Part shown: positions 9,944 to 64,000 of the stretch, in pieces
How positions within the stretch are numbered: position 1 is the stretch's first letter
How the letters are laid out: the number at the start of each line of letters is the position of its first letter
IMG/VR virus record: IMGVR_UViG_3300042518_001688
Coordinates: 19,409-83,408 of that record
From: a virus
Length of the DNA stretch: 64,000 bases
Direction: 5' to 3' (one strand)
The notes under the pieces: model-generated
Database searches by the model: none
Told to the model about the DNA's origin: nothing
The model's input: the letters and a program-made list of their open reading frames with translations, nothing else
Made by a program: the position numbers and the translations under genes

Positions 9944-9950
9944 TGTTATT

Positions 9951-10007: not shown

Positions 10008-10008
10008 C

Positions 10009-10455
10009 TCACTCAACGTATTTTAGTTGTTTAATAGTGAAATCTTGTTCAGTCCCCCCGTGATGGTAAATTATGGAATTTATGGCTTGAGTAGCCCAAA
10101 ATTCAGAGGCATAGGTTTGCGCCTCACACGCGCCACTCCAGTTATCATTCTCTGACCAAAAATGTCCATTCTTGGCTAAGACATACAAAGTCTGCCTAGC
10201 TTGTTCTTGCATTTCATGGAAGACATCTAGTAACGCTGGATTGTGCATTATCCTAGAGGATTCAGGTTCGTCCCCGTATTCATGCCATGTTTGCACAAGA
10301 ATTGAATTATCAACAGGGTAAACAATTAAGTAATGATACATACCCTCCTGTGAATCCCATCTAGCATCCTCAATAGAATAACCAAATCCTCCGTTTTCGT
10401 GTAATCCCGATGGTTTACAGTATTCCAATAACATTCTTAATTCATTTTCAGTCAC
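10009..10455 (-). CDS. hypothetical protein, 148 aa
   Basis: GTG 10455 is chosen because AAGGAGAGTAAG precedes it immediately; upstream in-frame ATGs fall in the repeated leader or in the XRE gene. The product is aromatic-rich and acidic, with a helical middle (MQEQARQTLYVLAKNGHFW). No family recognised. Confidence 0.55.
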   Translation of the reverse strand: MTENELRMLLEYCKPSGLHENGGFGYSIEDARWDSQEGMYHYLIVYPVDNSILVQTWHEYGDEPESSRIMHNPALLDVFHEMQEQARQTLYVLAKNGHFWSENDNWSGACEAQTYASEFWATQAINSIIYHHGGTEQDFTIKQLKYVE

Positions 10456-33445: not shown

Positions 33446-33889
33446 TCAATCCTGCCAATATCTACTAATTTTCTTTGTTAGCTTCCGGGGAGAACTGCTA
33501 AACTGCTTGCCTTCCCGAAATGCTTTTTGCTTGCTACGGTTTAAGGATTTCACTTCACTCTTGGATAAATCCTCCCACGCTGCTGAAGGTAAATATTTTT
33601 TAACTACTGTTCGCCCGCTCTTGGTTTTCCGATAGCTCTTACCTCCATCGGCGGTTCTCCATTTTTGTTTAGTCCACTTAACCATACTGTTGCTGCGGGT
33701 TTTCTTGCCCTTATAACCACCACCTTTATCTTTGTATATCTTGGTGGCTAATTGCATGGCTCTAGCACTATGTTTTCCACCCATTCGAGCAACGGCTGTA
33801 CGCTTGGCTTGTTCCCATAATCCGGGCTTGGTTTTGGTGGCAGTATTGAATTTGGCTGTTTGAATGTATGACTCCAGCAGTCCAGGCAT
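33446..33889 (-). CDS. DUF5872-like basic protein with an AKF tag
   Basis: The middle has GKHSARAMQLATKIYKDKGG, then GYKGKK, KWTKQKWRT and KYLPSAAWEDLSKSEVK, matching my recollection of DUF5872, a family best known from large viruses and algae. The protein is very basic (Lys/Arg throughout). Its first 14 residues end in IQTAKF, similar to the A-x-F tag of the head-cluster modules. It is antisense to the tail genes and convergent with the hub operon. Virion packaging is inference. Confidence 0.6.
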   Translation of the reverse strand: MPGLLESYIQTAKFNTATKTKPGLWEQAKRTAVARMGGKHSARAMQLATKIYKDKGGGYKGKKTRSNSMVKWTKQKWRTADGGKSYRKTKSGRTVVKKYLPSAAWEDLSKSEVKSLNRSKQKAFREGKQFSSSPRKLTKKISRYWQD

Positions 33890-45300: not shown

Positions 45301-45694
45301 AACGGTAAAACCACAACCACAGCCCAGTAGATTTACATTGTTGCAACAAGAAATTAATGATATCGAGAGGCAGATACCCTTTGCTGAGTCCAAGCTAAAC
45401 GTTACTAACAGGGAGAAGGAAAAAAATGTAAATAGATTAGCTGGTATTGAAATAAGAATCAGGTCTAATGATGCTGGTCCTAATGCAGAAGTATTGAAAA
45501 AAGAAAAGGCAAAACTAGAGCGCGAGATTAGTAGATTAACAGCACAAGCGCGATCGCTATCTAGTGAATTAAGAGGATTGAAGTCTCAGTTATCTACTCT
45601 CAAGAAGCGAAGGAAAAGCAATAAGGATAACAGAGGATTTTCAAGAGGTGGAAAATTAGCAATGTTCGTATCGAACTTGAGAAATGGAATATGA
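42365..45694 (+). CDS. MuF-type minor head protein fused to helix-hairpin-helix repeats and a coiled coil, 1109 aa
   Basis: Residues 200-285 are a Mu gpF/SPP1 gp7 head-morphogenesis domain: RTELTGAYNTARVDSFAAAG, then a C-x2-C pair (RTCNPCLERNG) and HPHCRCTLKPL. A hydrophobic segment (LFIGISAALGLAGIYYLV) lies near 340-360. Three ComEA-like helix-hairpin-helix units follow near 475-530, 545-600 and 620-690 (FATIDDLKKIKGVSD; IEDLRNVPGIGKETVARA; FADMDDFRKRVN). The last 300 residues are coiled coil. The C-terminus RGGKLAMFVSNLRNGI carries an A-x-F tag. The standard MuF protein is far shorter; the DNA-binding extension suggests contact with packaged DNA. Confidence 0.8.
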   Translation: MKSSTPLLSKFDSVFSQFAKDDNSPLDKLENEFVQRMITLVQAESNSLIKSLRGATSEEDIDKAKWNLIPRMQQLLWYLWRDGWALGKDTAVRELALAKFTTNNELAEFASDSDSTGSRRSLRNKTRISSIKTPLEDSRVKKAIEDRTLELSNDYSESTNKEIKDAFREFNNSKDKKDARAKLEERIARAIGANNEQSNKRVRDTAARAKVIARTELTGAYNTARVDSFAAAGVKRFLWVANIVPGRTCNPCLERNGVIYTLEEIRTNFPPLHPHCRCTLKPLQEDDDRVKNQKKGIKDAIAPIAAGWLFGKAAEKVSAAAMAEIDKIPDKEEKKNDIGTKLFIGISAALGLAGIYYLVTRNPTVKQATQRATKETVEELGDQVEAYRQRKQAQEGLTEDKQPSALGQGAVTAASLPPSVQQNLPSELVNSNADIRNISPQEISRLTGMSIRDATRLRLQLDEELAKNPVKPEKTVDKMNNKQLKALGLTNKQINQLRRMKRQGQSFATIDDLKKIKGVSDRKIQEIKRRVEEERDPSLVLGGKKIEELSTKELKEYLRLSQNQAVAVREYLRKNRITKIEDLRNVPGIGKETVARAAYGVMRTTPRANINNFGNEGGVSNVNLLSERTGISRNLAQIIADERQQNGNFADMDDFRKRVNKRLKDSGSKVRLGKSVIKKINDNVTFLPSGEEEKPLIIPPKINPSKPLPQKQTRMGDPRTPQVEPERMVAPSPQKKVLPGSTRIKGRRVSPEERVNAAKLEDERQYRELAKEVEAYHLIPGTKGKIRGQVKRRISENTAIARQQENAYVAANSSANRATRVIDSLEEDVKALEDAYRSGNTEKIGDAKEAYLNQIKRVESRLDEITVPSSDDIDAAIEQTKVARSAAERSIASNAQRNTRRKAIEARMKASRADTSELENELQRNYTLERIDDQIDSLDRLSASLQNDPNNVRATIQRNKARLQELKERVANASALETPTVKPQPQPSRFTLLQQEINDIERQIPFAESKLNVTNREKEKNVNRLAGIEIRIRSNDAGPNAEVLKKEKAKLEREISRLTAQARSLSSELRGLKSQLSTLKKRRKSNKDNRGFSRGGKLAMFVSNLRNGI

Positions 45695-50852: not shown

Positions 50853-51282
50853 TGAAATCACTAAATAGAATGATGGCTAAATTTGGCAGGGGTAAGGACA
50901 AGAAACCCCGTAAAAAAAAAGAAACCTAGCTGATGTGGTTGGTTGGGATACATACAACAAGAACCCCAGTAAGTTCACGCCGTTAGATTTGGGATTAAGT
51001 GTAGTCCCTATAGCTGCTCTTGGAGCAAGTGTTGGAACAGATAGAGCGCAAGCAAAACTGATTAAAATTCGCAAAGATTTAGATGCTACAGACATACCAG
51101 CTATTCGAGAGGCAATTAAGTCAGATCCAGATAGGGCTGTTAAAGTTGCAAGAAAAATTGCCGCACCAGGGAAGACCATTGGTAAGTACGCATTAGGTGG
51201 TGCAGCCATAGGGGCTGGTATATATGGGGGTGAATTATTGGCTAGACGTGCATGGAAGAGATTTAAAAACAGGAATAAGTGA
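50852..51282 (+). CDS. head-cluster module protein 4, split by a -1 frameshift at A9
   Basis: ATG 50852 (overlapping the prior stop as TGATG) encodes MKSLNRMMAKFGRGKDKKPR and then reaches nine A residues at 50912-50920 and a stop at 50927. A -1 shift in the A-run yields KKKRNLADVVG, which continues into the frame ending at 51282, and this join restores the usual module pattern. Either a programmed frameshift or a homopolymer length change in the assembly explains it. The second part is a basic helical protein with a Gly-rich segment (ALGGAAIGAGIYGGELLA). Confidence 0.6.
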
Positions 51283-52598
51283 TGAAACTAGGTGGTCGTG
51301 GTCGAGACAAGAAACCAAGAAAACGCAAGCTGCTGGCAAACGCTGGCAGTGTTGCGCTTAACGCTGGTAACACTGGATTAGCTACTGCTGGGACATTAGG
51401 TGTAGCCGGATTAATAGCCAGTCCTCAAAATGCAGCACTCCAAGGTCGCCTAGCTAGAGCCGGATTATTAGCAGGTGCGGGGTATGGAGTTTATCAGGGA
51501 ATAAAGAAATTGAAGTCTAAGAAAAATATCAATTATTCTCAATCAATAAATAAAATGGGAAACATTGCCAAATTTAGAAATACAGAAGTCAATACTGTTG
51601 AACCTGCTGAATACCACAAACATTTATTTGACGCAGCTAGAGCGCAAATTGAAGAAGCGTTTAATGCAGGTGAATTAACTGAACAAGAAGCGATCGCATT
51701 AGAAATTAATGCCATTGGAGAACTGAGAGATCGGCTATCCGATGAAAACATTGATTACCTCTGTGAAGAATTGGGTTATAACCCCGAAGAAGTCGCTAAT
51801 TACTTGGATGCCCAAGAATACGAAGACGACGAAGAAGACGATGAAGAAGACGAAGAGGCTAATTACTCCAGAGGGACTAAATTAGCCGAGTTCCAATCTG
51901 GGAATGCCTTTGGGTACAATCTCCAAACTCTACTTTTAGAAGATGGATACGAGGATGTTACATCTGGTGCTGCTGCTTTAAGTAATGCGCTAGGTGTAAC
52001 AGGTGAAGAAGCTGCTGGTTTGTTGACTGGCGATTATGTTCCCACAAAAGAAACGATCGCACTCTTGGAAGAAATCTTTGAGTTAGATGAAGACCAAGCT
52101 GAAGCTTTAGCTAGTTCTGCTTACGAAGCATGGGAAGAGTCAGGACTCCTTGAGGAAGACGAAGAAGATGGTGATGAGGATAACGAAGCTAATTATCGCT
52201 TACACCAAGCAGAATCACAAATAGCTAAGTTTGAAACTCGTGAACTATTGCGTGATTCCTTAGCTGAATTGGAAATAGTTGCCCAACAAGGTTTACAAGA
52301 GTGGTGGCTACCTCCTGCTGCTTATCGGGCAATTATGGGCAATGATTCCACTGAACAACAACGAATTGCATCCTTTTCTGCTGCTTGTAAAGAAGACGGT
52401 GTGGAATTAGGCGATCGCCTTTATGCCATGCAGTTTGCGATCGCTTGTTTCAAAGAAGCTGGTCCATTATACGGCAACCAGATTATTGAAGAACAGCTAT
52501 CTAAGACCCCTGATGAAGCAAAGTTTGAGGCTTCTGTGGAAACTCAAGCACAACGTAATCACCGTCGTCGGATGCAAAACAATCCTTTACCCCAGTAG
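51282..52598 (+). CDS. acidic scaffold-like polyprotein with several A-x-F tags, 438 aa
   Basis: The N-terminus is a module without tag (GGRGRDKKPRKRKLLANAG plus a hydrophobic part). The rest is acidic and helical, with runs such as EYEDDEEDDEEDEEANYSRG. Tags occur at NIAKF (near residue 94), KLAEF (near 204), QIAKF (near 315) and EAKF (near 416), dividing it into segments that each resemble a small domain. Position between protease and capsid genes fits a scaffold degraded at maturation. Confidence 0.55.
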   Translation: MKLGGRGRDKKPRKRKLLANAGSVALNAGNTGLATAGTLGVAGLIASPQNAALQGRLARAGLLAGAGYGVYQGIKKLKSKKNINYSQSINKMGNIAKFRNTEVNTVEPAEYHKHLFDAARAQIEEAFNAGELTEQEAIALEINAIGELRDRLSDENIDYLCEELGYNPEEVANYLDAQEYEDDEEDDEEDEEANYSRGTKLAEFQSGNAFGYNLQTLLLEDGYEDVTSGAAALSNALGVTGEEAAGLLTGDYVPTKETIALLEEIFELDEDQAEALASSAYEAWEESGLLEEDEEDGDEDNEANYRLHQAESQIAKFETRELLRDSLAELEIVAQQGLQEWWLPPAAYRAIMGNDSTEQQRIASFSAACKEDGVELGDRLYAMQFAIACFKEAGPLYGNQIIEEQLSKTPDEAKFEASVETQAQRNHRRRMQNNPLPQ

Positions 52599-52604
52599 GA
52601 ACTC

Positions 52605-53465
52605 ATGACTTGGAATAGACGTTCAAATATTGAATTAGGGAAGGCGGTTGTCGCTGCTGTAGAAGGCATTGAGACAATCAGTGTCCTTCTTGTCAGAGAC
52701 AGATTAGGTTCTGACGACGATAACAAAAAATCCTTCCCCGCAGGTGCGGTTATCTGCCGAATTGGTACTGCTTATCACATCCACCCTGGCAGTAAAGTAA
52801 CTGCTGCTTTCTCCACTGGTGCTGCAACTGGAACTGTAGAATTACCCCGTGTGTTTAAAGCAGGTGACGTTCTAACCGTTCCTGATGGACACCACGTTAT
52901 TACTATCACTGGTACTTGGACTACAGGTGGTGATGTTCGTGTTACCCTTCCCAATGGATTCGTTAAGGTGATCGCAACTGGTGCGGGTGGTTCTACCTCC
53001 ATGACTACCACTCAGGTTGCAGCTAAGGTTGCGCTTGAATTAAATAATGACCCCGTTGCCTCTGATTTGTTGTTTGCCACCAACATAGCGAACGTGGTTT
53101 ATGCGTTCAATAAGCGGGAAATGAACTCAGCTTCATTTGCTGTTGCGTCCACATCCAACGCATCTGATTTAGCACTTGTTACCAGACCTCCGGGTACTGT
53201 TGTTGGCACTATCCTGTCCTACACCAACGCTGGGGTAATTACTTTAACTGGTAACGCCGCGATCGCTGTTCCTATTGGTGCAAATGTCGCTGTAGCTGTT
53301 AATGAAATTGTGGGCATTTATCCTCAACCTATTGATTTAACATACCAACCCAATCAAGCGATCGCTCCTATTATCACTGGTCGAATTTACGAAAACGCAT
53401 TACCTTATTTTGATGATGCGGTGCGTCGGGCATTACCAAAAATCAAGTTTACTGAAAAGTTCTAA
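52605..53465 (+). CDS. putative head decoration protein, 286 aa
   Basis: Beta-rich, Ala/Val/Thr-rich protein. It begins MTWNRRSNIELGKAVVAAVE and has FPAGAVICRIGTAYHIHPGS near the start, typical of capsid decoration folds. Lies between scaffold-like gene and major capsid gene. AGGAACTC precedes ATG 52605. Role assigned from location and composition. Confidence 0.5.
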   Translation: MTWNRRSNIELGKAVVAAVEGIETISVLLVRDRLGSDDDNKKSFPAGAVICRIGTAYHIHPGSKVTAAFSTGAATGTVELPRVFKAGDVLTVPDGHHVITITGTWTTGGDVRVTLPNGFVKVIATGAGGSTSMTTTQVAAKVALELNNDPVASDLLFATNIANVVYAFNKREMNSASFAVASTSNASDLALVTRPPGTVVGTILSYTNAGVITLTGNAAIAVPIGANVAVAVNEIVGIYPQPIDLTYQPNQAIAPIITGRIYENALPYFDDAVRRALPKIKFTEKF

Positions 53466-53486
53466 TTGTTGTTTTTGGTATTTGTG

Positions 53487-53525
53487 GCCATGTTCGATTC
53501 GATTTTCGAGCATGGCTATTTTTTT
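53487..53525 (+). terminator. rho-independent terminator built on a TTCGATTCGA motif
   Basis: GCCATGTTCGA (53487-53497) pairs with TCGAGCATGGC (53506-53516) with one mismatch, then TATTTTTTT. The left arm and loop contain the recurring TTCGATTCGA sequence. Confidence 0.75.
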
Positions 53526-53542
53526 AGGAATGGTGAATTATT

Positions 53543-54094
53543 ATGTCAAAACTAGCCAGATTCGCAAGACCTAAAGGTGCGAAGGATAAGAAAAAACGTA
53601 AGTCTAATCTATTACGTAATATTGCTATTGGTGCAGGTGGCACTGCGTTGCTTAGCAGTGCGGCTTATCTCGGTAGAGGTAAAATTGCTGGATTGATGAG
53701 CAAAGGGAAACCGAAGCCAGGTGTAACTAAAGTTCCTTACTCGCAGTTATCGAAAGAAGAATTGTTGTCAATGGGTGGCAAAGGTCGCATAAACGCAAGA
53801 AAAGCTGTTGTGTCAAGAACGAGTCAGAAGGACGATTTAAAGTATGGAGTGACACCAAATAGTGTTGATGATTTTGAAAACATTAATGCTATTAATAACG
53901 CTATCAATACCAATCGCCCTGGTTTTACTAAAGAGATGCTGAGGAAAATGAAAAAAGAAAAAGCGGTAAGAATAAAGGCTTACGCTGATCGGCTTAGAAA
54001 AGAAGGTGCTTATTATTCTTCATCTTCGCAGACTACCAATTTCCATGAATCAACAATGATGTCTCTAGCTAGTTTTAACCGCAAATGGAAATAA
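53543..54094 (+). CDS. head-cluster module protein 5, 183 aa
   Basis: MSKLARFARPKGAKDKKKRK opens the protein, then a hydrophobic segment (IAIGAGGTALLSSAAYLG) and a long charged helical part. The C-terminus MMSLASFNRKWK is a second tag, very like the start of the next gene (MLTLASF). Confidence 0.65.
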   Translation: MSKLARFARPKGAKDKKKRKSNLLRNIAIGAGGTALLSSAAYLGRGKIAGLMSKGKPKPGVTKVPYSQLSKEELLSMGGKGRINARKAVVSRTSQKDDLKYGVTPNSVDDFENINAINNAINTNRPGFTKEMLRKMKKEKAVRIKAYADRLRKEGAYYSSSSQTTNFHESTMMSLASFNRKWK

Positions 54095-54114
54095 TTATTT
54101 AAAAGGTAAATTTT

Positions 54115-54564
54115 ATGCTAACTTTGGCTTCTTTCCGTAGAGGAAAAGACAGGAAGAAAAGAAAATCTCGTAAACGTAAATATTTAGAATCTGCTGCTCA
54201 AGGTGCAGGTATTGGTGTTGTCGCAGTACCTACCGCAGTTGGCATCAGGGAAACGTTTAGGGCTGAAAATGTAGGTAAACCACTAGGTCAAAGCGTCGCA
54301 CGAAACGTATATGCTGGTGTGGCTCGTGGTGCTGCGCGGGGTACAGTTCGCGGTATTTATAGAGGTGCTTTAGCTGGGATGATTGGTGACAGCCTAGAAA
54401 AAGGAGTATCAACACTTTCATCTAAAGGTATTCTGGGTAAGGTACTATTAGGTAGTGCTGCTGCTGGTGCTGCTGGTGGCGTAATAGCCAGAAGGATGAG
54501 AGAAAAAGACCGCGAACGTAAATCTATCCCCGGTAAACTTAAAAGATTCCTGGGAGGTAGGTAA
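54115..54564 (+). CDS. head-cluster module protein 6, 149 aa
   Basis: MLTLASFRRGKDRKKRKSRK is the tag plus basic stretch. The rest has Gly/Ala zipper-like segments (GVARGAARGTVRGIYRGALA and LLGSAAAGAAGGVIA) that could enter membranes. Basic C-terminus. Its stop overlaps the next start as TAATG. Confidence 0.65.
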   Translation: MLTLASFRRGKDRKKRKSRKRKYLESAAQGAGIGVVAVPTAVGIRETFRAENVGKPLGQSVARNVYAGVARGAARGTVRGIYRGALAGMIGDSLEKGVSTLSSKGILGKVLLGSAAAGAAGGVIARRMREKDRERKSIPGKLKRFLGGR

Positions 54565-55304
54565 TGCTTGACAATATTAATCCTTTCTACCGCAAGAGAA
54601 AAGGCAAGTTGCAACTCGTTAGAGGTTTTCTCCGCAAGAAGAGAAAGTCTTTGTCAGCGATTAAAAAGAGAGTAATTCAATCTATCCCTGATAAAAAAGA
54701 TTTATCTAATATTAAGAAAAAAGTAATTAAAGTTCTCCCCAAGAAAAAGAAGAAAGATCCTAACTTATTGGGAGAAGGTAAAAACGGTAGAGTTATTGCC
54801 AAGGGTCCATTTACAATCCGCAAGGAATATAAAAAACGTCGGTTCTTAGATCCTGCAAGGAAATTGTTGGATGGACAAACTGCATGGGATAGGGAATACG
54901 GCATACAAAAAGTATTAGCCGATAGGGGTCTAGCTCCCAAAGTGAAACGTAAAGGTGAAAGATTTATTGAAATGGAACGAGTTTATGGTGAAACCATTGA
55001 CTCGAAAATGAAAAACGGTGAAGCGAGCGATCGCACTCAAAGAAAGTACGGCAAGAAATTAGCTAGGGAAGTGAAGCGGATGCACGATGCTGGTGTTTCC
55101 CATAATGATTTACATGGCGAGAATGTTATGGTTGGTCCATTCGGTGGCATGAAAGTAATTGATTATGGCTGGGCAAATGATAAAGGCAGACCCCTGAAGA
55201 TGAGGGAACGCAGGAAAGACTATGATAAGGTTCTCTCTAGGCATAAGGGTAAAAAGTACAAGGCGTTTAGGGATAGCTTTGAAAAGTCTTATTATGATTA
55301 TTAA
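54564..55304 (+). CDS. protein-kinase-like protein with basic N-terminus, 246 aa
   Basis: The first 65 residues are Lys/Arg-rich (FLRKKRKSLSAIKKRVIQSI) and resemble the module cargo. A kinase-like fold follows: Gly-rich loop GEGKNGRV, IRKEY with a candidate ATP lysine, catalytic loop HNDLHGENVM and metal loop IDYGWA (a DFG variant). It is closest in style to RIO or small phage and archaeal kinases. It is co-translated with a module gene inside the head operon, so it may be packaged and delivered. Substrate unknown. Confidence 0.7.
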   Translation: MLDNINPFYRKRKGKLQLVRGFLRKKRKSLSAIKKRVIQSIPDKKDLSNIKKKVIKVLPKKKKKDPNLLGEGKNGRVIAKGPFTIRKEYKKRRFLDPARKLLDGQTAWDREYGIQKVLADRGLAPKVKRKGERFIEMERVYGETIDSKMKNGEASDRTQRKYGKKLAREVKRMHDAGVSHNDLHGENVMVGPFGGMKVIDYGWANDKGRPLKMRERRKDYDKVLSRHKGKKYKAFRDSFEKSYYDY

Positions 55305-55309
55305 GACAA

Positions 55310-55342
55310 CAGTCATGCTCGATTTGAACATGACTGATATTT
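55310..55342 (+). terminator. hairpin and T-run before the capsid gene
   Basis: CAGTCATG (55310-55317) and CATGACTG (55329-55336) pair perfectly around an 11-base loop, followed by ATATTTTTA. It could trim read-through so that the capsid gene is separately expressed. Confidence 0.55.
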
Positions 55343-55461
55343 TTAAACTTGTGGGTGAGAAACTTGCCAACGAAACCACCTGGAATATTGCAAGTGTTCC
55401 TGCGTGGGTTGGCAATACAAATATTATCCATAGCCATAATCGAATCGAACACAGGGAATAA
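55330..55461 (+). CDS. possible 43-residue gene before the capsid gene
   Basis: From ATG 55330 a frame encodes MTDIFKLVGEKLANETTWNI and continues to 55461. The composition looks protein-like but the start lies inside the hairpin above and no ribosome-binding site is evident. The rest of 55305-55492 has a TCGAATCGAA motif at 55440-55449. Confidence 0.3.
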   Translation: MTDIFKLVGEKLANETTWNIASVPAWVGNTNIIHSHNRIEHRE

Positions 55462-55492
55462 CAGCAACGAACATTAACTGTGTATAGAAAAA

Positions 55493-56638
55493 ATGGCTTA
55501 TATTGCATCCTGGCTGAATGAACATCAGCAAACAAAGGAAGCTGATTTAGTTATAGATGAAACTCTAACTTGGCTTAAACAACGGTCTGGTTTGTTGGAT
55601 AAGTATGTCCCGTTAAAGACATATTCAAGCCGCAATTTCTTGATGTATGTTGTCAACAAAATCCGTACCGTTGCTTCTATTATTTCTTATGGAGCAGAGC
55701 CTCCGGTAGTTCGTTTGGGCAACTTCAACACCATTGACGCAAAAATGTTCAAGGTGGGTTTAAGTGTCTATTACGATGAAGATCAACAGTGGCAAATGAA
55801 GGAAGCAATGGAATTAGCGAGACTAAAAAATGTCTCTGTTCAAGACCAGGTTCTTCCTGATGGTTCAATTTTAAAAGGGTCAAACGAAGACCTTGCTAAT
55901 TTAATTCTTGGCAGCAATGGGACAATCGCAGACATTACTAGGTCTATTGGTGAATTATTAAATTATTTAACTTGGCAAGCACTTCAGAACGGTTCTGTGA
56001 ACTATACAGATCCTCGTACTAATGCCACTCCATTGGTACTGGATTACAAAAATCCTTCTGGCGGTTATAACCATTTCCCTGCGGCTTTAACTGGTAATGA
56101 TAGCTGGGATCGTCCCAACACAGCGAATGCTCTGGCTGTGCTTGAGGAAGATGTTGAAACTTTCACTACCACCAATGGTTTCAAGCCTGATTTAATTGTC
56201 ATGCCGTTAAAAGTGCGTCGGGCGATGCTGAACCAGGAATCTACTCGTCAAGCGGTTGCCAGCATGAGCAACAACTCTGCGATGTTGGTCGCCAATGCTG
56301 TTGGTTCTGTTGGTCCAGAAATGTTAATGGGTGTACTGGAACGCCGGGAACTTCCCCCAATCATCACATTTGATGAACAGTTTGAAATGGAAGACTCTAA
56401 CAAGAACCAGAACAAAATGCGGTTCTTAAACAACAACCGTTATGTATTCTTGACCAAGAATATGGGCGAACGGGCAATGGGTCCCACTTTGGAAGGTGAT
56501 GGAAGAGAAGGTGCTTATGTTGTTACCCGTGAAGTTCAGAAATTCCCCCCTGTAGATGCTACCCAAGGTGTGGCCACTGCGTTACCTGCCTTTGGTAATC
56601 CCAAATTGTTCTTCTCCCGTCAAGTAATCACTGAATAG
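55493..56638 (+). CDS. major capsid protein
   Basis: The 381-residue product fits the E-type/HK97-fold capsid proteins: an N-terminal arm, YVPLKTYSSRNFLMYVVNKI, FKVGLSVYYDEDQQWQMKEA, a central domain with NGSVNYTDPRTNATP and FTTTNGFKPDLIVMPLKVRR, and a C-terminal RFLNNNRYVFLTKN strand. It follows protease, scaffold and decoration genes in standard order. No A-x-F tag is visible at its start, so it may not be cleaved. Confidence 0.8.
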   Translation: MAYIASWLNEHQQTKEADLVIDETLTWLKQRSGLLDKYVPLKTYSSRNFLMYVVNKIRTVASIISYGAEPPVVRLGNFNTIDAKMFKVGLSVYYDEDQQWQMKEAMELARLKNVSVQDQVLPDGSILKGSNEDLANLILGSNGTIADITRSIGELLNYLTWQALQNGSVNYTDPRTNATPLVLDYKNPSGGYNHFPAALTGNDSWDRPNTANALAVLEEDVETFTTTNGFKPDLIVMPLKVRRAMLNQESTRQAVASMSNNSAMLVANAVGSVGPEMLMGVLERRELPPIITFDEQFEMEDSNKNQNKMRFLNNNRYVFLTKNMGERAMGPTLEGDGREGAYVVTREVQKFPPVDATQGVATALPAFGNPKLFFSRQVITE

Positions 56639-56640
56639 CC

Positions 56641-56955
56641 ATGATTGATCCAACAAAGCCTGTCCACTTAAAAACTATGATTCGGGATATCAAAACAGGA
56701 AATGTTTATATTCCCTTGAACCGTGCCTATCAACCTGGCGAAATTCCTTTTCGGTTGTTGACTGATGCTAACGCATACCAAGATGAAAGCACCGCAGAAG
56801 TTGTTGTGCCTACTCAGTCCACTGTCACCCAGATAGCACCCCCGCTAGAACTATCTTCTAGTCAAATCCCAAGCACCAAACTAGAACCTGCACAACCTAG
56901 AACAACCAGAATAGCCAAGGTACAGCCTGAAGCAAGTGAACTTAAAACGGAGTAA
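56641..56955 (+). CDS. hypothetical Pro/Thr-rich protein after the capsid gene, 104 aa
   Basis: The N-terminal half is compact (PVHLKTMIRDIKTGNVYIPL) and the C-terminal half is Pro/Ser/Thr-rich and likely flexible. It starts two bases after the capsid stop. Possibly a head accessory protein. Confidence 0.5.
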   Translation: MIDPTKPVHLKTMIRDIKTGNVYIPLNRAYQPGEIPFRLLTDANAYQDESTAEVVVPTQSTVTQIAPPLELSSSQIPSTKLEPAQPRTTRIAKVQPEASELKTE

Positions 56956-56958
56956 TCT

Positions 56959-57624
56959 ATGCCCCGCTATTCAAAGCTGGCTAATTTTGCCAGAACTAGA
57001 GGGGCGAAAGACAAACGCCCCCGTAAAAAACGTAGTGATTTATTGGATAGAGAGTACAAGGGTGCGCGGACTATAGAGATGCGTACCCGTTCTATAGCTA
57101 ATTTAGGCAGAACATTAAACTCTATAGGTAGTTCAGTCAGAGAAGCTCGATTAACTGCTAAATGGCTGGGTATCAACCCATCTAGAAAACGCAGTGATCC
57201 GATGTCAATTATTAGAAATGCCCGTTCTGTGTCAGATACGGGGAATAGTATACTTCGATTAGGTAGAGGGTTGTTTGGTATGCGATCGCTCAGTTCAATG
57301 ATGGCTGAGTTCCGCAGGGGTAAGGATAAGAAAAAGAGGAAAATTAGGAAATCCACAATTTTACAAAATGCACTTTATGGTGCAGCTTTAACAGGTGCGC
57401 CTGGTGCGATTAGTGGAGCAACAGAAGAAATGCTTTCAACTAGAGTCCCTATTGGCAAGCTTCGCAATGGACAAACCATTGATGTCTTTAGCACCAAACC
57501 ATCTGTGATCCTGAAGGGTGCGCTAAAAGGTGCTATTAGAACCGCACCAATAGGAGCAGCACTAGGGGCTGGCAGTTTAATTGCGGCTCGTGGATTACGG
57601 AAATTAATGGAAAGGGAGATATAA
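56959..57624 (+). CDS. head-cluster module protein 7, two modules, 221 aa
   Basis: Module one: KLANFARTRGAKDKRPRKKR. Module two starts near residue 110 with MRSLSSMMAEFRRGKDKKKR, including an internal Met that mirrors the starts of separate module genes, so this looks like an in-frame fusion. A hydrophobic Gly/Ala segment (APIGAALGAGSLIAARGLRK) ends the protein. Confidence 0.65.
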   Translation: MPRYSKLANFARTRGAKDKRPRKKRSDLLDREYKGARTIEMRTRSIANLGRTLNSIGSSVREARLTAKWLGINPSRKRSDPMSIIRNARSVSDTGNSILRLGRGLFGMRSLSSMMAEFRRGKDKKKRKIRKSTILQNALYGAALTGAPGAISGATEEMLSTRVPIGKLRNGQTIDVFSTKPSVILKGALKGAIRTAPIGAALGAGSLIAARGLRKLMEREI

Positions 57625-57626
57625 TT

Positions 57627-58007
57627 ATGCGATCGCTCAATTCAATGATGGCTGAATTTGCTAGAGGCAAAGACAAGAAAAAGAGAAGAAAGCGAACCTT
57701 AGCGGGTTCTGCTGGTAAAGGTGCTGCTATTGGCATGGGAGTACCTTTAGCTCTTGGCACTTTAGCTGGTGCTACTGGTGCTGGTATATATGCAGCAAAA
57801 GCAGGAATGAAACCAGGAATGGTTGGGCTTTCTATACCTGCTGGTGGACTTGGTGGACTAGCGGCTACCGCAAATAAAGCCCCTGGTAAAGTATTAGCTG
57901 CTGGTGCTTTAGGTGGTGGAATCGGTGCTGGCTTGTATGGTGCAGATAGATTAAAAGAGCGTAACGGTAATCGCTCACCTTTAAATAGAATCGCAGGGAA
58001 AAGGTAG
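57627..58007 (+). CDS. head-cluster module protein 8, 126 aa
   Basis: MRSLNSMMAEFARGKDKKKR then KRTLAGSAGKGAAIGMG and an extended Gly/Ala-rich hydrophobic region with zipper spacing (AGALGGGIGAGLYGADRLKE). Starts two bases after the previous stop. Confidence 0.65.
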   Translation: MRSLNSMMAEFARGKDKKKRRKRTLAGSAGKGAAIGMGVPLALGTLAGATGAGIYAAKAGMKPGMVGLSIPAGGLGGLAATANKAPGKVLAAGALGGGIGAGLYGADRLKERNGNRSPLNRIAGKR

Positions 58008-58009
58008 TT

Positions 58010-58384
58010 ATGAAATTAATATCTTCTCGATATGATTTAGCTGAGTTTCGCAGGGGTAAAGACAAGAGGCAGAGGAAGAAAAAGTCTTTACTAGGTGCTA
58101 TTGGTAAAGGTGCTTTAATTGGTGCTGTTATCCCAGTAGGTGTAGGCGCATTGGGAATGGCAGGACTTGGGGCATCATCAACAGCTAAATCTATACCCCA
58201 AAGGATTTTTAATACTGGCGTAAGCTCATCTATAGGAGGTGCGATGGGAGGCGCACTTGCTCCTGCTACTGCTTTAGCTGGTGGTGCTACTGCTGCTACT
58301 GCTTACGGTATTAACAAGCTGAGAAATAAAGACAAAAAGCCAACAGTGCGATCGCGGTTAAACAACTTAATTCCTGGTAGGTAA
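58010..58384 (+). CDS. head-cluster module protein 9, 124 aa
   Basis: Tag RYDLAEF, basic RRGKDKRQRKKKSLLGAIGK and a long hydrophobic Gly/Ala region (GALIGAVIPVGVGALGMAGL). Two bases from its neighbour. Confidence 0.65.
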   Translation: MKLISSRYDLAEFRRGKDKRQRKKKSLLGAIGKGALIGAVIPVGVGALGMAGLGASSTAKSIPQRIFNTGVSSSIGGAMGGALAPATALAGGATAATAYGINKLRNKDKKPTVRSRLNNLIPGR

Positions 58385-58386
58385 CT

Positions 58387-58992
58387 ATGTCAACTTACAC
58401 CACAGTAGAAGCGATCGCGCGGAGACTACAGGGTAGATTAAAGGTAATTTCTACCCTGTCCCCTACCACTACCCCCAACTACAATACTCAGCAAGTAGTT
58501 GACCCGTTATTAATACAAGATGTTTTGGAGCAAGTCGAGAACGATCTTGATTTGACTTTGGCTCAGATATATGAAATGCCGTTACAAAATAAACATCCTT
58601 TACTGGCAGGGATTGTAGAGAAATTAGTAACAGTAGAAATATTGCAGACATATTATCAAAGTACCCAATCTCCTGAAATGGGGGGAGATCCGGGTTATGG
58701 TAGATTGCTTTATCAACAGGCACAACAGGCGATCGCTAAATTAACTGCGGGTCATAACATCATGGTGTTTGGGGTTCAACCCCCTGCACAAATGCCAGGA
58801 GTAGTTACACCACAACCAATAGTTTTACCTGGAGAAAGATTAGCGTTAAAGCCACCCGATACCCTATCAACTAACGTTACTGTTGTCACCTCTACCAAGT
58901 GGAGAAAGTTGTCAGATGGCGATCGCAAGGATTGGGGGATTAATTGGGATAACCAAGATAGAGCTAGAGGTGCTGATGAATTATGGAATTAA
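58387..58992 (+). CDS. head-tail connector (gp36/DUF1320-like), 201 aa
   Basis: Helical N-terminal domain (VEAIARRLQGRLKVI … QDVLEQVENDLDLTLAQIYE … LAGIVEKLVTVEILQTYYQ) with the size and helix order of head-tail connectors that follow capsid genes. The C-terminal 70 residues are extended and Pro-rich. Confidence 0.55.
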   Translation: MSTYTTVEAIARRLQGRLKVISTLSPTTTPNYNTQQVVDPLLIQDVLEQVENDLDLTLAQIYEMPLQNKHPLLAGIVEKLVTVEILQTYYQSTQSPEMGGDPGYGRLLYQQAQQAIAKLTAGHNIMVFGVQPPAQMPGVVTPQPIVLPGERLALKPPDTLSTNVTVVTSTKWRKLSDGDRKDWGINWDNQDRARGADELWN

Positions 58993-59066
58993 TTTACTCC
59001 CGACATAGTTTAGCTACATTTGCCAAACCCCGCACCCCACAAAATACAGAACCAGTAGGCGTGTAA
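58983..59066 (+). CDS. 27-residue tag-only module
   Basis: A frame overlapping the connector stop encodes MELIYSRHSLATFAKPRTPQ and stops. It has a tag like modules 3 and 9 (SSRxDLATF) but lost or never had the basic and hydrophobic parts. A 42-base gap follows. Confidence 0.4.
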   Translation: MELIYSRHSLATFAKPRTPQNTEPVGV

Positions 59067-59108
59067 AAAGTCCAAAATAAAATTTACAACAATATCCATT
59101 GTTTTATC

Positions 59109-59831
59109 ATGAAATCACTAAATACTATGGTAGCTGAATTTGGCAGAGGTAAGGATAAAGCCCCAAGAAAGAAAAGGGCTAACCTCAGAAATCATGTTCT
59201 CGGTGGGACGATAGTTGGCGGTATTGCTGGCAATGCACTCACAAAACCTATTACTGTTCCCATTGAGTTAGTTGGTGGTTTAGCTGGTAGTGCGATCGGC
59301 GCGGGTGCAGGTGCAGCTACTTATGGAGCAAGAAGGGCATGGCGTGGAGGAAAAGCATTAGTAGCGAAACTTAGAGGAAAAGAACCGGAGAAGTACGATT
59401 ATATGAAAAGTTTAAGTAGAATGACGGCTGAATTTGCTCGTACTAGAGGCGCAACAGATAAAAAACCCAGGAAGAGAGGAACATTAGCAGGATACATAGG
59501 CAAAGGTGCTGCGATTGGTGCGCTAGGCATGGTGGGAGGAAGTGCTTTGTTGGGCGGAGTTCATGGTGCGGCTGTAGCCAAACAGGCAGCCAAAGGTTTA
59601 GGCATTCCTTTTAAACCAATACGCACTCGACTTCAAGTAGGTGCTGGAGGTGCAATGCTTGAAGGTATGAAAGGTGCTATGGTAGCCCCTGGTGCTGCGA
59701 TCGCGGGCGGAGGAATTGGTGCTGGTGCTTATGGGATCAATAAACTTCGTAATCGGAACAAAGAGGAAAAACCCACATCACGACTACAATCAGCAAGAAA
59801 GAAACTCGGTGGCATGATTGGCGGAAACTAA
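59109..59831 (+). CDS. head-cluster module protein 10, two modules, 240 aa
   Basis: Module one: MKSLNTMVAEFGRGKDKAPR then RKKRANLRNHVLGG. Module two begins near residue 98 with MKSLSRMTAEFARTRGATDK and KPRKRGTLAGYIG. Both have Gly/Ala hydrophobic tails. A fusion of two module genes, with the second Met preserved. Confidence 0.65.
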   Translation: MKSLNTMVAEFGRGKDKAPRKKRANLRNHVLGGTIVGGIAGNALTKPITVPIELVGGLAGSAIGAGAGAATYGARRAWRGGKALVAKLRGKEPEKYDYMKSLSRMTAEFARTRGATDKKPRKRGTLAGYIGKGAAIGALGMVGGSALLGGVHGAAVAKQAAKGLGIPFKPIRTRLQVGAGGAMLEGMKGAMVAPGAAIAGGGIGAGAYGINKLRNRNKEEKPTSRLQSARKKLGGMIGGN

Positions 59832-60274
59832 TGGAACTAAGAATCACTGGACTCCAACAAGTTAACAGCCTATTAGCGGAAGCCCAGAAAAAATCCAAGG
59901 ACTTCTCTCCACTAGAAGCAACCCTGAGAGATATATTCTATGCAGATGCTTCTAAAAGGTTTGAATCATCTCCTTCCGTAGATACAGGTGGTATGGTCTA
60001 TGGGGATGAATATTGGCGAAAACTTAAAAAAGTACCACCTCATCGTCGGGGAGGTCAGGTATTAATTGACAGTGAGACAATGATGCAATCTGTAACCGTT
60101 GAGGGAGATGGTAACGGCATCTTTGAAATCAACGGCACAGAAGTCATCTTCGGTTCAAGAGTTCCCTATGCCAATAAGCAGAATGTAGACCGTCCTTTTC
60201 TGTTTTGGCATCCATTGTTATTGGAGCAGGTGACAAAGGCGATATCTGAATGGTTGGCAGATATTACTCCTTAA
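59831..60274 (+). CDS. phage virion morphogenesis / tail completion protein, 147 aa
   Basis: The product begins MELRITGLQQVNSLLAEAQK and contains RDIFYADASKRFESSPSVDT and a late FGSRVPYANKQNVDRPFLFW, resembling Mu gpG / HK97 gp10-type neck proteins. Start overlaps the prior stop as TAATG. Position after the connector supports this. Confidence 0.65.
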   Translation: MELRITGLQQVNSLLAEAQKKSKDFSPLEATLRDIFYADASKRFESSPSVDTGGMVYGDEYWRKLKKVPPHRRGGQVLIDSETMMQSVTVEGDGNGIFEINGTEVIFGSRVPYANKQNVDRPFLFWHPLLLEQVTKAISEWLADITP

Positions 60275-60428
60275 CATCGTTCTGGATATCTTTTAAAAGA
60301 GTATCAATATTTTGAATCTGCTTCTTTGCATTCTTCAAATGTGCTTCCGCGATCGCCACTTGTTCCTTGTAGAACTCTCTCAATTCAAGCAGTCCTTCAA
60401 GTGCGCTTTTTGGTGGCTGTGGAAGCAT
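60264..60428 (-). CDS. small coiled-coil protein, 54 aa
   Basis: ATG 60428 ([12 protein letters not shown]) opens a coiled coil ([20 protein letters not shown]). It overlaps the end of the neck gene by 11 bases on the other strand and its upstream neighbour by 32. It belongs to a small antisense pair inside the late operon. Confidence 0.45.
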
Positions 60429-60606
60429 TTTTCTTGGTTCTATTAAAAGGTGGATGGCAAAATTCGCAGTAGGTTGGACGTGGACCAAATGTTTCTCTTT
60501 GGGTTGGCTGACTACACTTTTTACAAATGAAATTGAATATCCGAGATTGGATAGTACGGTAATGCTCTCGGACGGTATAAGCCCGGACTCTAACTAGCTT
60601 TTCCAT
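60397..60606 (-). CDS. zinc-ribbon protein, 69 aa
   Basis: Two CxxC pairs (ICKKC and YCEFC) about 20 residues apart form a likely zinc ribbon, with basic ends. It is antisense to the late operon. On the opposite strand 60618-60625 carries CTGGCAGG. Confidence 0.5.
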
Positions 60607-60677
60607 GATTATTTTGACTGGCAGGTCGATCCTAATTATCGGATATGGGAACTAAAAAAGCAAAGAGGGTAATTAAC

Positions 60678-61091
60678 ATGAAGTCACTTAATAGGATGAT
60701 GGCTGAGTTTGGCAGGGGTAAGGATAAAAAGAAGAGGAAGAAGAAGTTTCTGGGAACTGTAGGAAGTAATGCCGTTCTTGGTGCAATTGGAGGAGCATTA
60801 TATCCTACAGCATCCATGCTTGCAATATCTCGTATGATGCCAAAAGGCATGACACCACCATTGAATTACCGAAATATACCTATAATGATGGCTCGAAATG
60901 CGGTTATCGGAGCTACACTTGGTGGCGTTGGTAGCGGTATTAATTACGGAGCAGGGAAGATCGTAGAGTCGAGTGGCAACTTAATTGAAAAAAAATTCGG
61001 TAAACCACCTACTCCTCGGCAAAAAGTGGGAAGAGGTGTAAAACGGACAGGAGAAAGGTTGGGTAACTATATTTCTGGTGACAAAAAATGA
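60678..61091 (+). CDS. head-cluster module protein 11, 137 aa
   Basis: ATG 60678 behind AGAGGGT gives MKSLNRMMAEFGRGKDKKKR, nearly the same start as module 4 at 50852. Hydrophobic and Gly-rich middle (AVIGATLGGVGSGINYGAGK) and basic C-terminus. Stop overlaps the next start as ATGA. Confidence 0.65.
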   Translation: MKSLNRMMAEFGRGKDKKKRKKKFLGTVGSNAVLGAIGGALYPTASMLAISRMMPKGMTPPLNYRNIPIMMARNAVIGATLGGVGSGINYGAGKIVESSGNLIEKKFGKPPTPRQKVGRGVKRTGERLGNYISGDKK

Positions 61092-61672
61092 TACCTAATA
61101 TTCCCCACCCTGTAGAAACTGACCCAGCACCAGATATTGACTGGACTTGTCAGGCGATCGCAGAATATCTAAGAGATGGATTAAATGCAGCTTACGTACC
61201 AGCTAAAATCAAATCTCTCCAGAGGCAGAAAGAACGGCATTTAGAGTATATCCAACAGGGATTGGCAGAACCTACAACTATTTTTGATAACCAGATATAT
61301 GAATTAACTCATACACAAACACCACCAAAAGTAGTTAATGGTATTCGTGCCTATGATGCTTTTAACCTGCCATTACATGAATTTCCTTACCTCAAGGTTT
61401 ACCGTTCTCAAGATATTTATAGTGCAGGCAAAACTGTCTCTCAGTCTTCATTAATGTCCACATATTGCCTAAGTCTACCCAACCAAGAGGAATTACAAGG
61501 GAGCATGAGATGGGTGTCCTGGACAATTAACAATTTGCTACTCAATCCCCAAGTCAACTTGTGTCTAAAAATTCAAGATGGTAGTGTCCGGGCTGAATAC
61601 CGTACTATGTTGAATGAGATGGTTATACCTGTTTACGCTTTTCTAAGAATGTACTTCACTATCAAGTCGTAG
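61088..61672 (+). CDS. putative neck/tail terminator protein, 194 aa
   Basis: Situated between the last module gene and the tail tube gene, where tail terminators lie. The product has an N-terminal helix (QAIAEYLRDGLNAAYVPAKI) and a C-terminal alpha/beta part (WVSWTINNLLLNPQVNLCLK). Assignment is mainly by position. Confidence 0.45.
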   Translation: MIPNIPHPVETDPAPDIDWTCQAIAEYLRDGLNAAYVPAKIKSLQRQKERHLEYIQQGLAEPTTIFDNQIYELTHTQTPPKVVNGIRAYDAFNLPLHEFPYLKVYRSQDIYSAGKTVSQSSLMSTYCLSLPNQEELQGSMRWVSWTINNLLLNPQVNLCLKIQDGSVRAEYRTMLNEMVIPVYAFLRMYFTIKS

Positions 61673-61707
61673 GGAATAACACAGCCACAGAGTATTATTT
61701 AGAAAAT

Positions 61708-62496
61708 ATGACCGTCGCTATATTTAACGAAACTTTTGTTGGTATCAGTGAGCTAAAGCTCCAACGAATCTCCGACGGGTTTGTTTATAACCTCCCCATC
61801 CCTGCTACTTTTGCTGTTCAAGATAATAAACAGCAGATTATTCAGCGTACCAAGAGTTCACAGGGTCGTACAGTAAGATCCGGTGCATTCATTAAAGGTG
61901 AAGAACCCATCTTAACCGTTGACTACAACTATATGCAGCCTGAACTCATCGCTATGAGAGCAGGTAATACCTTTGAAGAAGCTACCTACAACATCCAAAT
62001 CGCTCGAACCGTCAATGTAACTCAGTTAACCTACGCTGGTGCTGCTAATGGTTATCTAGGGTACGGGATGCCAGCAGATCAAGCTAATTCTCGCGGTGCT
62101 ATCAGAGAAGCTGGTGGCTTGTCTATTCAGTTAACCCAAGCTGATTATGCTGACGATCTTTCAGCATTGACTAATACCTTTGCTCAGGGTCAGCATGGAG
62201 CGTTGAAGTTCTCACCTGATTTGATGGGTGAAGTTGTTTCCCTGATTATGCCCCATTCTGTAACAGGATTGGGTTTAGGTGATGGATTGATTGGTGAACA
62301 TAAATTAGTTGCTCATCTCTCTGATACTCAAAACATGGTGTGGGTATTTGTGGCCAGCAACATTACTATTAGTTCCGATGGTTCTGGTTTTACCCCTGAT
62401 GCTGAAACTTTACAGTTACCATTCTTTTTGAATATTCTTCCTGGTGGTTGCCGTACCTGGAATTTGTATTCAACCAACCAAAAGGTTAAATGCTAA
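61708..62496 (+). CDS. tail tube protein, 262 aa
   Basis: Beta-rich protein with two similar strand blocks (NLPIPATFAVQDNKQQIIQR and LVAHLSDTQNMVWVFVASNI) as in major tail proteins. It is followed directly by two chaperone frames joined by a frameshift signal, the usual order. Confidence 0.6.
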   Translation: MTVAIFNETFVGISELKLQRISDGFVYNLPIPATFAVQDNKQQIIQRTKSSQGRTVRSGAFIKGEEPILTVDYNYMQPELIAMRAGNTFEEATYNIQIARTVNVTQLTYAGAANGYLGYGMPADQANSRGAIREAGGLSIQLTQADYADDLSALTNTFAQGQHGALKFSPDLMGEVVSLIMPHSVTGLGLGDGLIGEHKLVAHLSDTQNMVWVFVASNITISSDGSGFTPDAETLQLPFFLNILPGGCRTWNLYSTNQKVKC

Positions 62497-63005
62497 TGCC
62501 TAAAACTGAAAAACCCACAACTAAAAGCTTTGTTGTTACTTATCCAGATGGTACTGAGGTTGTGGTATTGCGACTACCACCTACTCAACTTGAAGAGGCG
62601 ACGGCGATCGCTGAAAAAATCTTCGAGCGTTTTTTTACCTACTGGGAATACTCCCGTGATTGCTTGGGTGATGTGATGATTGACCCAGCCGCACGGGGAT
62701 ACATCAAGCAATTGGCTAGTATGTTCCGAGTTGCGGGTCAAAAAGAGTTAGGTATTAATGTTACTCCGCTAGAGGATGAATGTGACTATGAACAGATTGG
62801 GCAAATATTTATTACCCAGTCTGTTGATATGGAAACTGGCACAATTAACACCGTTCCAGGTGAGGGTATCAAACCTTCTAAATTTGCGGAGTTGCACAAG
62901 CTAAATTTTTTCAAAGTCCGGGCAGTGGAGAAGATCAAGCAACAGGAGAAACCAGAAGCGACGACACCATCCCCAGTAGTGGAGACGGAATCGCCGATAT
63001 CTTAG
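62496..63005 (+). CDS. tail assembly chaperone, short form, 169 aa
   Basis: ATG 62496 overlaps the tail tube stop as TAATG. The product is acidic and helical (LPPTQLEEATAIAEKIFERF). At 62903-62909 the in-frame A-AAT-TTT heptamer lies about 100 bases before the stop, the position expected for the G/GT-type frameshift. Reading on in frame gives a Glu/Pro/Thr-rich tail. Confidence 0.65.
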   Translation: MPKTEKPTTKSFVVTYPDGTEVVVLRLPPTQLEEATAIAEKIFERFFTYWEYSRDCLGDVMIDPAARGYIKQLASMFRVAGQKELGINVTPLEDECDYEQIGQIFITQSVDMETGTINTVPGEGIKPSKFAELHKLNFFKVRAVEKIKQQEKPEATTPSPVVETESPIS

Positions 63006-63274
63006 CCCTGTTGATTGAATATTATGGGGGTGACACAGCTTTAACCTTGTTAAATACTTTTGATATTGACAGGTTAAATAAACTCCTTGCTCAGACCAGG
63101 GAAATGAGAAGAACATCCCAAGACCGTAAAGAGGAACGACGAGCTAAAGCCAGCAAGGAATTGTCTGATTACCTCAAACAGACTGATTTATCTACTGTTC
63201 AGGTAGATCATGTTGATGCCGATGGTAAACACCAATCTCTGACCTTGGAGCAGATCAACAATTTTGAATTTTGA
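62496..63274 (+). CDS. tail assembly chaperone, -1 frameshift extended form
   Basis: A -1 shift at A-AAT-TTT (62903-62909) enters a frame open from 62882 to 63274. The extension runs through a hydrophilic linker (DDTIPSSGDG) into a helical domain (IADILALLIEYYGGDTALTL … RLNKLLAQTREMRRT). The only start near the second part is a TTG at 63011 without ribosome-binding site, so it is more likely made by frameshift. In lambda-type phages the GT extension recruits the tape measure protein. Confidence 0.6.
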
Positions 63275-63738
63275 TGTTCGATTCGATTATGGAAATTAAC
63301 CAGATAAGTCATAAATTCTATAGACCCATCAGCAGGGTCAAGATAGGTGAGGCTGAAGTTGACTACCTAGAAATGGGCGCGTGTCAAACAGGATTACTCC
63401 TACAAGCATTTATTGAGGCACAGCGATCGCTCACAAGAGAAAATCAATCTGACAGCGAAGTATTTGAAACGGTAATTAATATCCTCTCTGGTATTGATGG
63501 TACTCAACAAACAAGACGTGATGCTTTGGTTGGGCAATTGTTCATCAAACCCCAGGCTTACGCATTTATTCAACAAGTTCTTGAAGAATCGTTCCCTAAA
63601 ATACCAAATATCAGTGATTTAAGGGATGAGTTCAAAGGTGAATTGGTTGTGTATTTACTGGATATTTTTGCGAAAAGGATGATTGAACAATCAGCGCAAT
63701 TAATGAAGGTTAGGACTTACGCACAAGTCACGGAATAA
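63274..63738 (+). CDS. hypothetical tail-associated protein with repeat-derived C-terminus, 154 aa
   Basis: ATG 63274 overlaps the chaperone stop as TGATG and begins with the recurring ATGTTCGATTCGATT motif (MFDSI). The product is helical (ETVINILSGIDGTQQTRRDA … LVVYLLDIFAKRMIEQ). The last eight codons (RTYAQVTE) come from the terminal repeat at 63713, so the natural C-terminus was replaced when that repeat inserted. A tape measure gene would be expected next and is missing. Confidence 0.6.
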   Translation: MFDSIMEINQISHKFYRPISRVKIGEAEVDYLEMGACQTGLLLQAFIEAQRSLTRENQSDSEVFETVINILSGIDGTQQTRRDALVGQLFIKPQAYAFIQQVLEESFPKIPNISDLRDEFKGELVVYLLDIFAKRMIEQSAQLMKVRTYAQVTE

Positions 63739-63857
63739 TGAACCACGTTCGCGAAGCGTGCCGAAGGCATAGGAACGAAGAGAACGAAGAAAAGAGGGTT
63801 TGAGAGATATTTTGCGTAAGTCCTGGACAGTATTTGAAGTAGGTTTTGCGTAAGTCC
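63713..63857. mobile_element. small non-autonomous repeat with inverted ends
   Basis: GGACTTACGCA (63713-63723) is matched by TGCGTAAGTCC at 63813-63823 and again at 63847-63857. Inside, GAACCACGTTCGCGAAGCGT followed by GCCGAAGGCA is a cyanobacterial interspersed repeat. No transposase is encoded, so it resembles a MITE. It marks the right edge of the phage structural genes. Confidence 0.55.
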
Positions 63858-63926
63858 AGATAGATATGGAAGTTAATACATTACATAATGATAAAACTTT
63901 TCTCCATGACTATATTCAACCCTTGA

Positions 63927-64000
63927 TCATTCCACTAAATTATGCTTAATTGCAAATCTAACTAATTCAGCGCGGTTGCTGGTTTCAGTCTTTCTCAATA
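63927..64000 (-). CDS. 3' end of a LuxR/NarL-type transcriptional regulator
   Basis: On the minus strand the last 24 codons read LRKTETSNRAELVRFAIKHN and end LVE-stop, the end of a GerE/LuxR helix-turn-helix (recognition and fourth helix). The rest lies beyond the window. Probably host chromosomal or cargo next to the element. Confidence 0.65.
   Translation of the reverse strand, partial: LRKTETSNRAELVRFAIKHNLVE

Follow-up and report, generated by a model that had tools for sequence, protein, structure and literature searches.

A Bud32-Like Kinase Encoded Between Head Genes of a Probable Cyanobacterial Phage, a Candidate Virion Enzyme

What a kinase gene might be doing in the head operon of a virus is the question raised by IMG/VR record IMGVR_UViG_3300042518_001688. 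The initial annotation had put forward two answers: that the enzyme is packaged and injected, acting on host proteins early, or that it phosphorylates the basic module proteins encoded beside it to control DNA condensation. The stretch analyzed, referred to below as the window, comprises 64,000 bases and corresponds to bases 19409-83408 of the 83,408-base record. The host is probably a bloom-forming cyanobacterium of the Nostocales, because the phage-encoded sliding clamp DnaN (window 21010-22161) shares 93% identity with its Cuspidothrix issatschenkoi counterpart, a strong host pointer. A second contig, IMGVR_UViG_3300033979_000663, is identical over window bases 51727-64000 except for one 12-base gap; a search for near-identical DNA in phages returned nothing useful.

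The open reading frame at issue encodes a kinase-like protein of 246 residues, P0001, at exactly 54564-55304, and is the sole Pkinase match in the whole record. The Gly-rich loop, HNDLHGENVM and DYG motifs first reported for it were all found, as was the Lys/Arg-rich segment of 65 residues said to precede the kinase, 25 of which are K or R; of all 65-residue stretches in 24 structural ORFs, the most basic falls within this segment, and the protein as a whole is very basic (net charge +41). The start codon and the stop codon of the module gene before it overlap (TAATG) and are preceded by GGGAGG, in agreement with the co-translation claimed earlier, and the capsid gene does follow directly, after 188 bases. 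The protein and its parts are located as follows:

54564-55304, plus strand: kinase-like protein P0001, 246 aa (Pfam, PHROG, AlphaFold model and structure matches)
54564-54755, plus strand: Lys/Arg-rich N-terminal extension, residues 1-64, of low model confidence
54756-55301, plus strand: predicted kinase domain, residues 65-246, with a Bud32/PRPK-like fold and without an APE motif (Z 19.0 to PRPK)
54771-54794, plus strand: residues 70-77 of the Gly-rich loop LGEGKNGRV (residues 69-77); G75 in 27/27 relatives, G72 in 24/27
54819-54824, plus strand: beta-3 position, Arg86-Lys87; Lys in 27/27 relatives at the R86 column, register uncertain
54894-54896, plus strand: alpha-C glutamate, Glu111, present in 27/27 relatives
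55101-55124, plus strand: HNDLHGEN, residues 180-187 of the catalytic loop HNDLHGENVM (180-189); H180, D182 and N187 in 27/27 relatives
55161-55169, plus strand: metal-binding DYG, residues 200-202; D200 in 27/27 relatives, G202 in 25/27

Pfam Pkinase matches residues 128-209 of P0001 with 35.9 bits (cut-off 31.7) and Kdo matches with 22.8 bits, above its cut-off of 21.3; APH and ABC1 fall below their cut-offs, and RIO1 is absent from the Pfam matches up to E 1. PHROGs 2361, 18305 and 3297, all three of them kinases, also match. Against a profile made from 27 other phage kinases and excluding P0001, the protein scores 70-76 bits, whereas an Aphanizomenon kinase of the host lineage reaches 37 bits and shuffled versions of two other proteins 9.3 bits at most; judged by these scores, its homology to kinases is beyond chance. 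An AlphaFold2 model, built from an alignment of P0001 with 27 IMG/VR relatives, has a mean pLDDT of 78, with values of about 43-50 for residues 1-60 and of 76-96 in most ten-residue blocks from residue 61 (block 91-100 is at 51). Foldseek comparison of this model with the PDB returned kinases throughout, at E about 1e-7, and VIA-align placed it at Z 13-19 to PDB kinases. The top entries were five of human PRPK (Z 18.5-19.0, up to 177 residues, rmsd 2.6-2.8), the best of them with Z 19.0 over 177 aligned residues at rmsd 2.7, followed by other Bud32 structures (Z 16.3-17.2) and, below these, by RIOK3 (Z 15.4), WaaP (14.8) and PknB (14.4). Structure prediction, proposed in the initial annotation as a check on the kinase fold, thus came down in favor of one, with Pfam in agreement, and as modeled P0001 has a kinase fold. 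In the comparison with RIO and small phage kinases proposed there, Bud32/PRPK was closer in fold than RIO.

The model indicates that P0001 is built like Bud32. Bud32/PRPK, the KEOPS kinase, is its best fold match and shares a short C-lobe ending in two helices; in P0001, 44 residues forming two helices are C-terminal to DYG, the C-lobe being shortened and still present, and neither an APE motif nor a full canonical C-lobe was found in the sequence or the model. Membership of the Bud32 family is not claimed: unlike Bud32/PRPK, P0001 has a basic arm, scores 31.8 bits against TIGR03724 (Bud32), far under the cut-off of 125, and is encoded in a record, possibly a fragment, in which no TsaD/Kae1 was found. 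Our search for literature tying Bud32 to bacteriophage virions found none. A host-derived kinase was also considered and rejected; no recent host origin was seen in genome searches of the Cuspidothrix family, where 0/217 genomes matched at E 1e-6 (a search run without a positive control), or of the Nostocales, where 1/7 genomes matched at E 1e-3, at 24%.

Seven residues (G75, E111, P125, H180, D182, N187, and D200) are identical in P0001 and all 27 relatives, and the one core position in question is the ATP lysine. Loss of this lysine in all homologues, which the initial annotation had named as telling against a kinase, was not seen, since 27/27 relatives keep it; P0001 itself may not, having Arg86 in the beta-3 lysine column, where Arg86 stayed in three of four further MAFFT settings (in the fourth the strand was unaligned). 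The near-copy contig provides no independent check of Arg86 because it is near-identical to the window over this region. Lys87 adjoins Arg86 and may be the true beta-3 lysine with a turn one residue longer, a register shift that is possible because the linker following the strand is long in P0001. Catalytic activity is accordingly graded as likely, and no firmer, because of this uncertain register; Arg86, if it does take the lysine's place, may mean weak or absent catalysis.

The surroundings of the gene are set out below, from the head protein at the left border to the major capsid protein at the right:

52605-53465, plus strand: head protein, left border of the insertion; Pam2 homologue at 5e-18, weak in L129 and L130
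53484-53519, plus strand: hairpin followed by a T run, terminator-like by consensus match only; 14-pair stem
53543-54094, plus strand: basic module protein 1 of the cassette, with the LARFARPKGAKDKKKRK module
54115-54564, plus strand: basic module protein 2, with the LASFRRGKDRKKRK module; its stop overlaps the kinase start (TAATG)
55310-55336, strand not assigned: hairpin 3' of the kinase gene; 11-pair stem
55493-56638, plus strand: major capsid protein at the right border of the insertion; match to PHROG 29 (major head protein) at 1.8e-25, 31% to Pam2/PA-SR01

Within the window, 2,027 bases separate the 52605-53465 gene from the capsid gene, and they contain the two module genes and the kinase gene. 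The corresponding interval is 40 bases in L129, 5 in L130, 18 in Pam2 and 21 in PA-SR01, L129 and L130 being two genomes, among 388 from the order, in which the capsid protein found a match (8e-38 and 3e-26, respectively, to the window capsid protein; the upstream head protein matches them at about 1e-4). The upstream head gene lies 16-20 nt before the capsid gene in 26 of 27 Pam2-type IMG/VR loci, the exception being L018, in which it was not seen adjoining the capsid gene in the ORF call; L029 was left out because it has no upstream ORF. A capsid scan with the single protein returned only the window's near-copy, and a scan of genome contigs with a capsid alignment gave nothing useful. As read from this gene order, the kinase and two module genes are a roughly 2-kb lineage-specific insertion between two head genes.

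Several further observations concern this region. An element resembling TGTTCGAYTCGATT is dispersed in the window (8 matches against 0.42 expected), several copies lying in hairpins or at gene starts; its sites include 53491-53504, 55438-55451 and 63275-63288, an inverted pair brackets the kinase cassette, and it was found also in L005. The structural proteins of window 42365-62496 are enriched in an A-x-F motif whose middle residue is polar, charged or Met (27 against 7.3 shuffled, 0/500), as are the head proteins of Pam2 (31 against 8.9 shuffled) and L129 (12 against 5.1), whereas L130 (4 against 4.9) and the early genes of the window (12 against 13.9) are not; this residue class was picked after looking, and the modules are repeats. 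We regard A-x-F as a candidate prohead-protease or targeting site. The acidic protein of window 51279-52598, which has several A-x-F sites between acidic linkers and homologues at the corresponding place in L129, L130 and Pam2, resembles a processed scaffold. Runs of small genes at L139 3844-6651, L140 6463-9215 and L129 548-4079, in which a Cys or A-x-F leader precedes basic and Gly/Ala-rich stretches, resemble that of the window with other leaders. As a tag on the kinase A-x-F was rejected, since it occurs 0 times in P0001; for the modules it is retained as an observation. Rejected likewise was the idea that the kinase is a degenerate copy of a basic module: a module HMM trained on 12 module stretches retrieved 10 module ORFs plus an acidic one (14.7 bits) and missed the kinase at E 10; a shuffled version of the kinase's basic arm scored 9.3 bits. 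A further module protein is encoded at 57627-58007. A search for module proteins in phages produced nothing useful.

Scanning IMG/VR with an alignment of the kinase core gave 39 loci, one of them the window's near-copy. The search motif was present in a plus-strand ORF in 37 of the other 38 and absent in one, and the resulting 40 ORFs were reduced to 27 distinct relatives at 85% similarity by dropping 13 near-duplicates. N-terminal tags of three types occur in 24 of these 27 relatives: a Cys tag, CGxxCIxxxxxC or CGxGxIxxxxKC, in 16, the tag CxRxDGxxYG..CRKG in six, and a T4-like leader in two, leaving three without. The tag patterns match 7 of 1350 shuffled pre-catalytic parts; by tag type, they match 39, 28 and 5 of 615 non-kinase ORFs of the kinase loci, and 1, 0 and 0 of 160 ORFs pooled from Pam2, PA-SR01 and the record that holds the window. 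Because these patterns, like a DUF2213-like protease pattern, were written after viewing the sequences, the tag counts are descriptions and no tests; 'MuF motif', 'DUF2213' and 'T4-like capsid leader' serve as working labels in them. Tags common to kinases and to neighboring non-kinase genes would fit a targeting leader. P0001 is without the Cys tags of its relatives and has the Lys/Arg-rich arm instead.

The initial annotation considered a kinase between head genes to be rare, a view that does not survive comparison with these loci. PF04233 (MuF) was found in seven of 37 kinase-locus records, in a search that left out the S-CBWM1 copy and the second locus of one contig; the window's near-copy has no MuF because its contig begins after that gene. 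In six of the seven (L139, L140, L141, L143, L145, and L146), the start of a MuF gene is 1.2-5.2 kb away from the kinase gene. In the remaining one, L150, MuF (189-296) and matches to the kinase family (578-658) fall in a single ORF of 748 aa (8147-10393). The S-CBWM1 kinase lies between peptidase and capsid genes on the opposite strand, and in L172 the kinase just precedes ORFs named by resemblance as protease-like and capsid-like. Pam2 (L133 12802-13770) and PA-SR01 (L135 4964-5920) have, near the terminase gene, a short kinase-like protein whose N-lobe is much reduced and which is joined to a Gly-rich module; against the family profile these reach 20.1 and 10.7 bits, respectively, and only the Pam2 copy is convincing as a kinase because the PA-SR01 copy is near the best shuffle (9.3). 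A 1722-aa ORF of L143 (1069-6237), next to the MuF gene, matches the kinase family at 516-600 and again at about 1416-1586, and also contains DUF5872 (744-844) and several Cys tags; DUF5872 in window 33446-33889 was dropped, there being no Pfam match up to E 0.1. A separate MuF-domain scan gave nothing useful. With the L150 fusion counted as placed, 19 of 27 relatives are not beside MuF or a head protease, and several are in tail-fiber regions, a position for which other reasons are possible. Across these loci, the kinase family as seen in sequence is repeatedly tagged or fused to head proteins.

Kinases have been detected in the virions of cyanophages S-CRM01, S-TIM5, S-CBWM1 (APH, ChoK, and Rio2) and S-CREM2 and suggested to enter the host, strong expression in the course of infection being offered as another way to account for finding them, according to a published report (PMC10665884); these phages are other than the present one. 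They include the nearest viral kinases to P0001 by structure and are among the nearest by sequence: the ChoK-, APH- and RIO-like kinases of S-CBWM1 take BFVD ranks 1-3, the S-TIM5 kinase rank 8, and rank 5, a protein of 821 aa, is probably the S-CRM01 kinase, whose length it matches; tblastn matched P0001 to S-CBWM1 gp161 and to S-CRM01. They too come from cyanophages, and their genes are tagged or virion-linked. Unlike them, P0001 is encoded inside a head operon between two head genes, has Arg86, and carries its basic arm rather than a Cys tag or T4-like leader. MuF minor-head proteins with effector domains provide a second likeness, in that L150 joins MuF through a Lys/Pro/Ala-rich linker, which recalls the basic arm of P0001, to a kinase in one chain, whereas the MuF (42365-45694) and kinase genes of the window are separate and 8.9 kb apart. 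The published account of polyvalent proteins (PMC5512222) predicts that their kinases are delivered with phage DNA and describes loss of the C-terminal subdomain, where P0001 has a shortened C-lobe, together with an insert between the catalytic His and Asp, whereas HND is contiguous in P0001; zeta-toxin-like kinases fused to MuF are also mentioned there (PMC5512222). T7 gp0.7 is an early kinase; the P0001 gene lies in the late head operon.

On balance we lean toward P0001 being a variant of the virion-associated kinases already known from cyanophages, one that is packaged and delivered, and rate this as somewhat better than an even chance. By analogy with the reported cyanophage virion kinases (PMC10665884), packaging and delivery would be the better of the two original proposals. 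The minimal Bud32/PRPK-like kinase on its basic N-terminal arm, last gene of a lineage-specific cassette with two basic Gly-rich module proteins, would be expressed late alongside the head proteins and taken into the capsid with the modules, the arm anchoring it to DNA or to the capsid interior; it would then enter the next host with the DNA and phosphorylate host proteins early. Kinase fold, most catalytic residues, translational coupling, the insertion and membership of a tagged or fused phage kinase family were computed here, and the occurrence of kinases in virions is taken from the literature; packaging, delivery, activity and target we infer. Entry into the head would need the basic arm or partner proteins, because P0001 has neither its relatives' tags nor A-x-F.

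A kinase that acts in the producing cell at assembly, phosphorylating head or module proteins to time DNA condensation or capsid maturation, with no delivery, would also fit the head-operon location of the gene and its co-translation with a module gene. Ser/Thr sites follow basic tracts in the modules, and basophilic sites of the form [KR][KR].?[ST][LI] occur 15 times in 11 module/kinase proteins, one of them in the kinase's own arm, against 2.8 shuffled (0/500), an excess that is inflated because the modules are copies of each other and the sites are not independent. Module phosphorylation by P0001 is possible; however, relatives without this type of basic module still have the kinase, and L129, L130, Pam2 and PA-SR01 have module-like proteins with no kinase at this place, so that an assembly role without delivery seems to us unlikely. 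Another use of the same sites would make the kinase, packed together with the module proteins and the DNA, the switch of a capsid chromatin, neutralizing the basic tracts of the modules in the head or on entry and so releasing the genome, an action comparable to the loosening of DNA by phosphorylated histones or protamines; this we offer as a speculation with little probability. Arg86, where 27/27 relatives have Lys, and the strongly basic character of the protein (+41) would suit a pseudokinase whose fold is kept as a structural or nucleotide/DNA-binding head component, but the other core residues are all kept and Lys87 may be the real beta-3 lysine, which leaves that outcome rather improbable. 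Least probable of all, and in our view very doubtful, is an accessory (moron) kinase, serving for example superinfection exclusion or defense, that came to lie in the late region by chance: although hairpins flank the lineage-specific insertion on both sides and PADLOC PD-T4-6 kinase models match the catalytic core at 41.9 bits, the match is limited to residues 129-209, a part common to kinases, the gene is coupled to a late structural gene, a plus-strand scan of 52500-57000 revealed no sigma-70-like site, and relatives are tagged or fused to virion proteins.

The wider pattern of tags, MuF neighborhood and MuF fusion is the more interesting result than P0001 alone, in that the kinase family would tie virion kinases to head genes through common N-terminal tags, location in the head operon and, in one case, direct fusion to MuF. 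Were the capsid-chromatin reading true, head-linked kinases elsewhere would be variants of one packaged system for genome release or host take-over. If packaging of the kinase is confirmed, the family would provide testable rules for the loading of phage enzymes into capsids, and P0001 would be a candidate means by which bloom-forming cyanobacteria are attacked through early phosphorylation.
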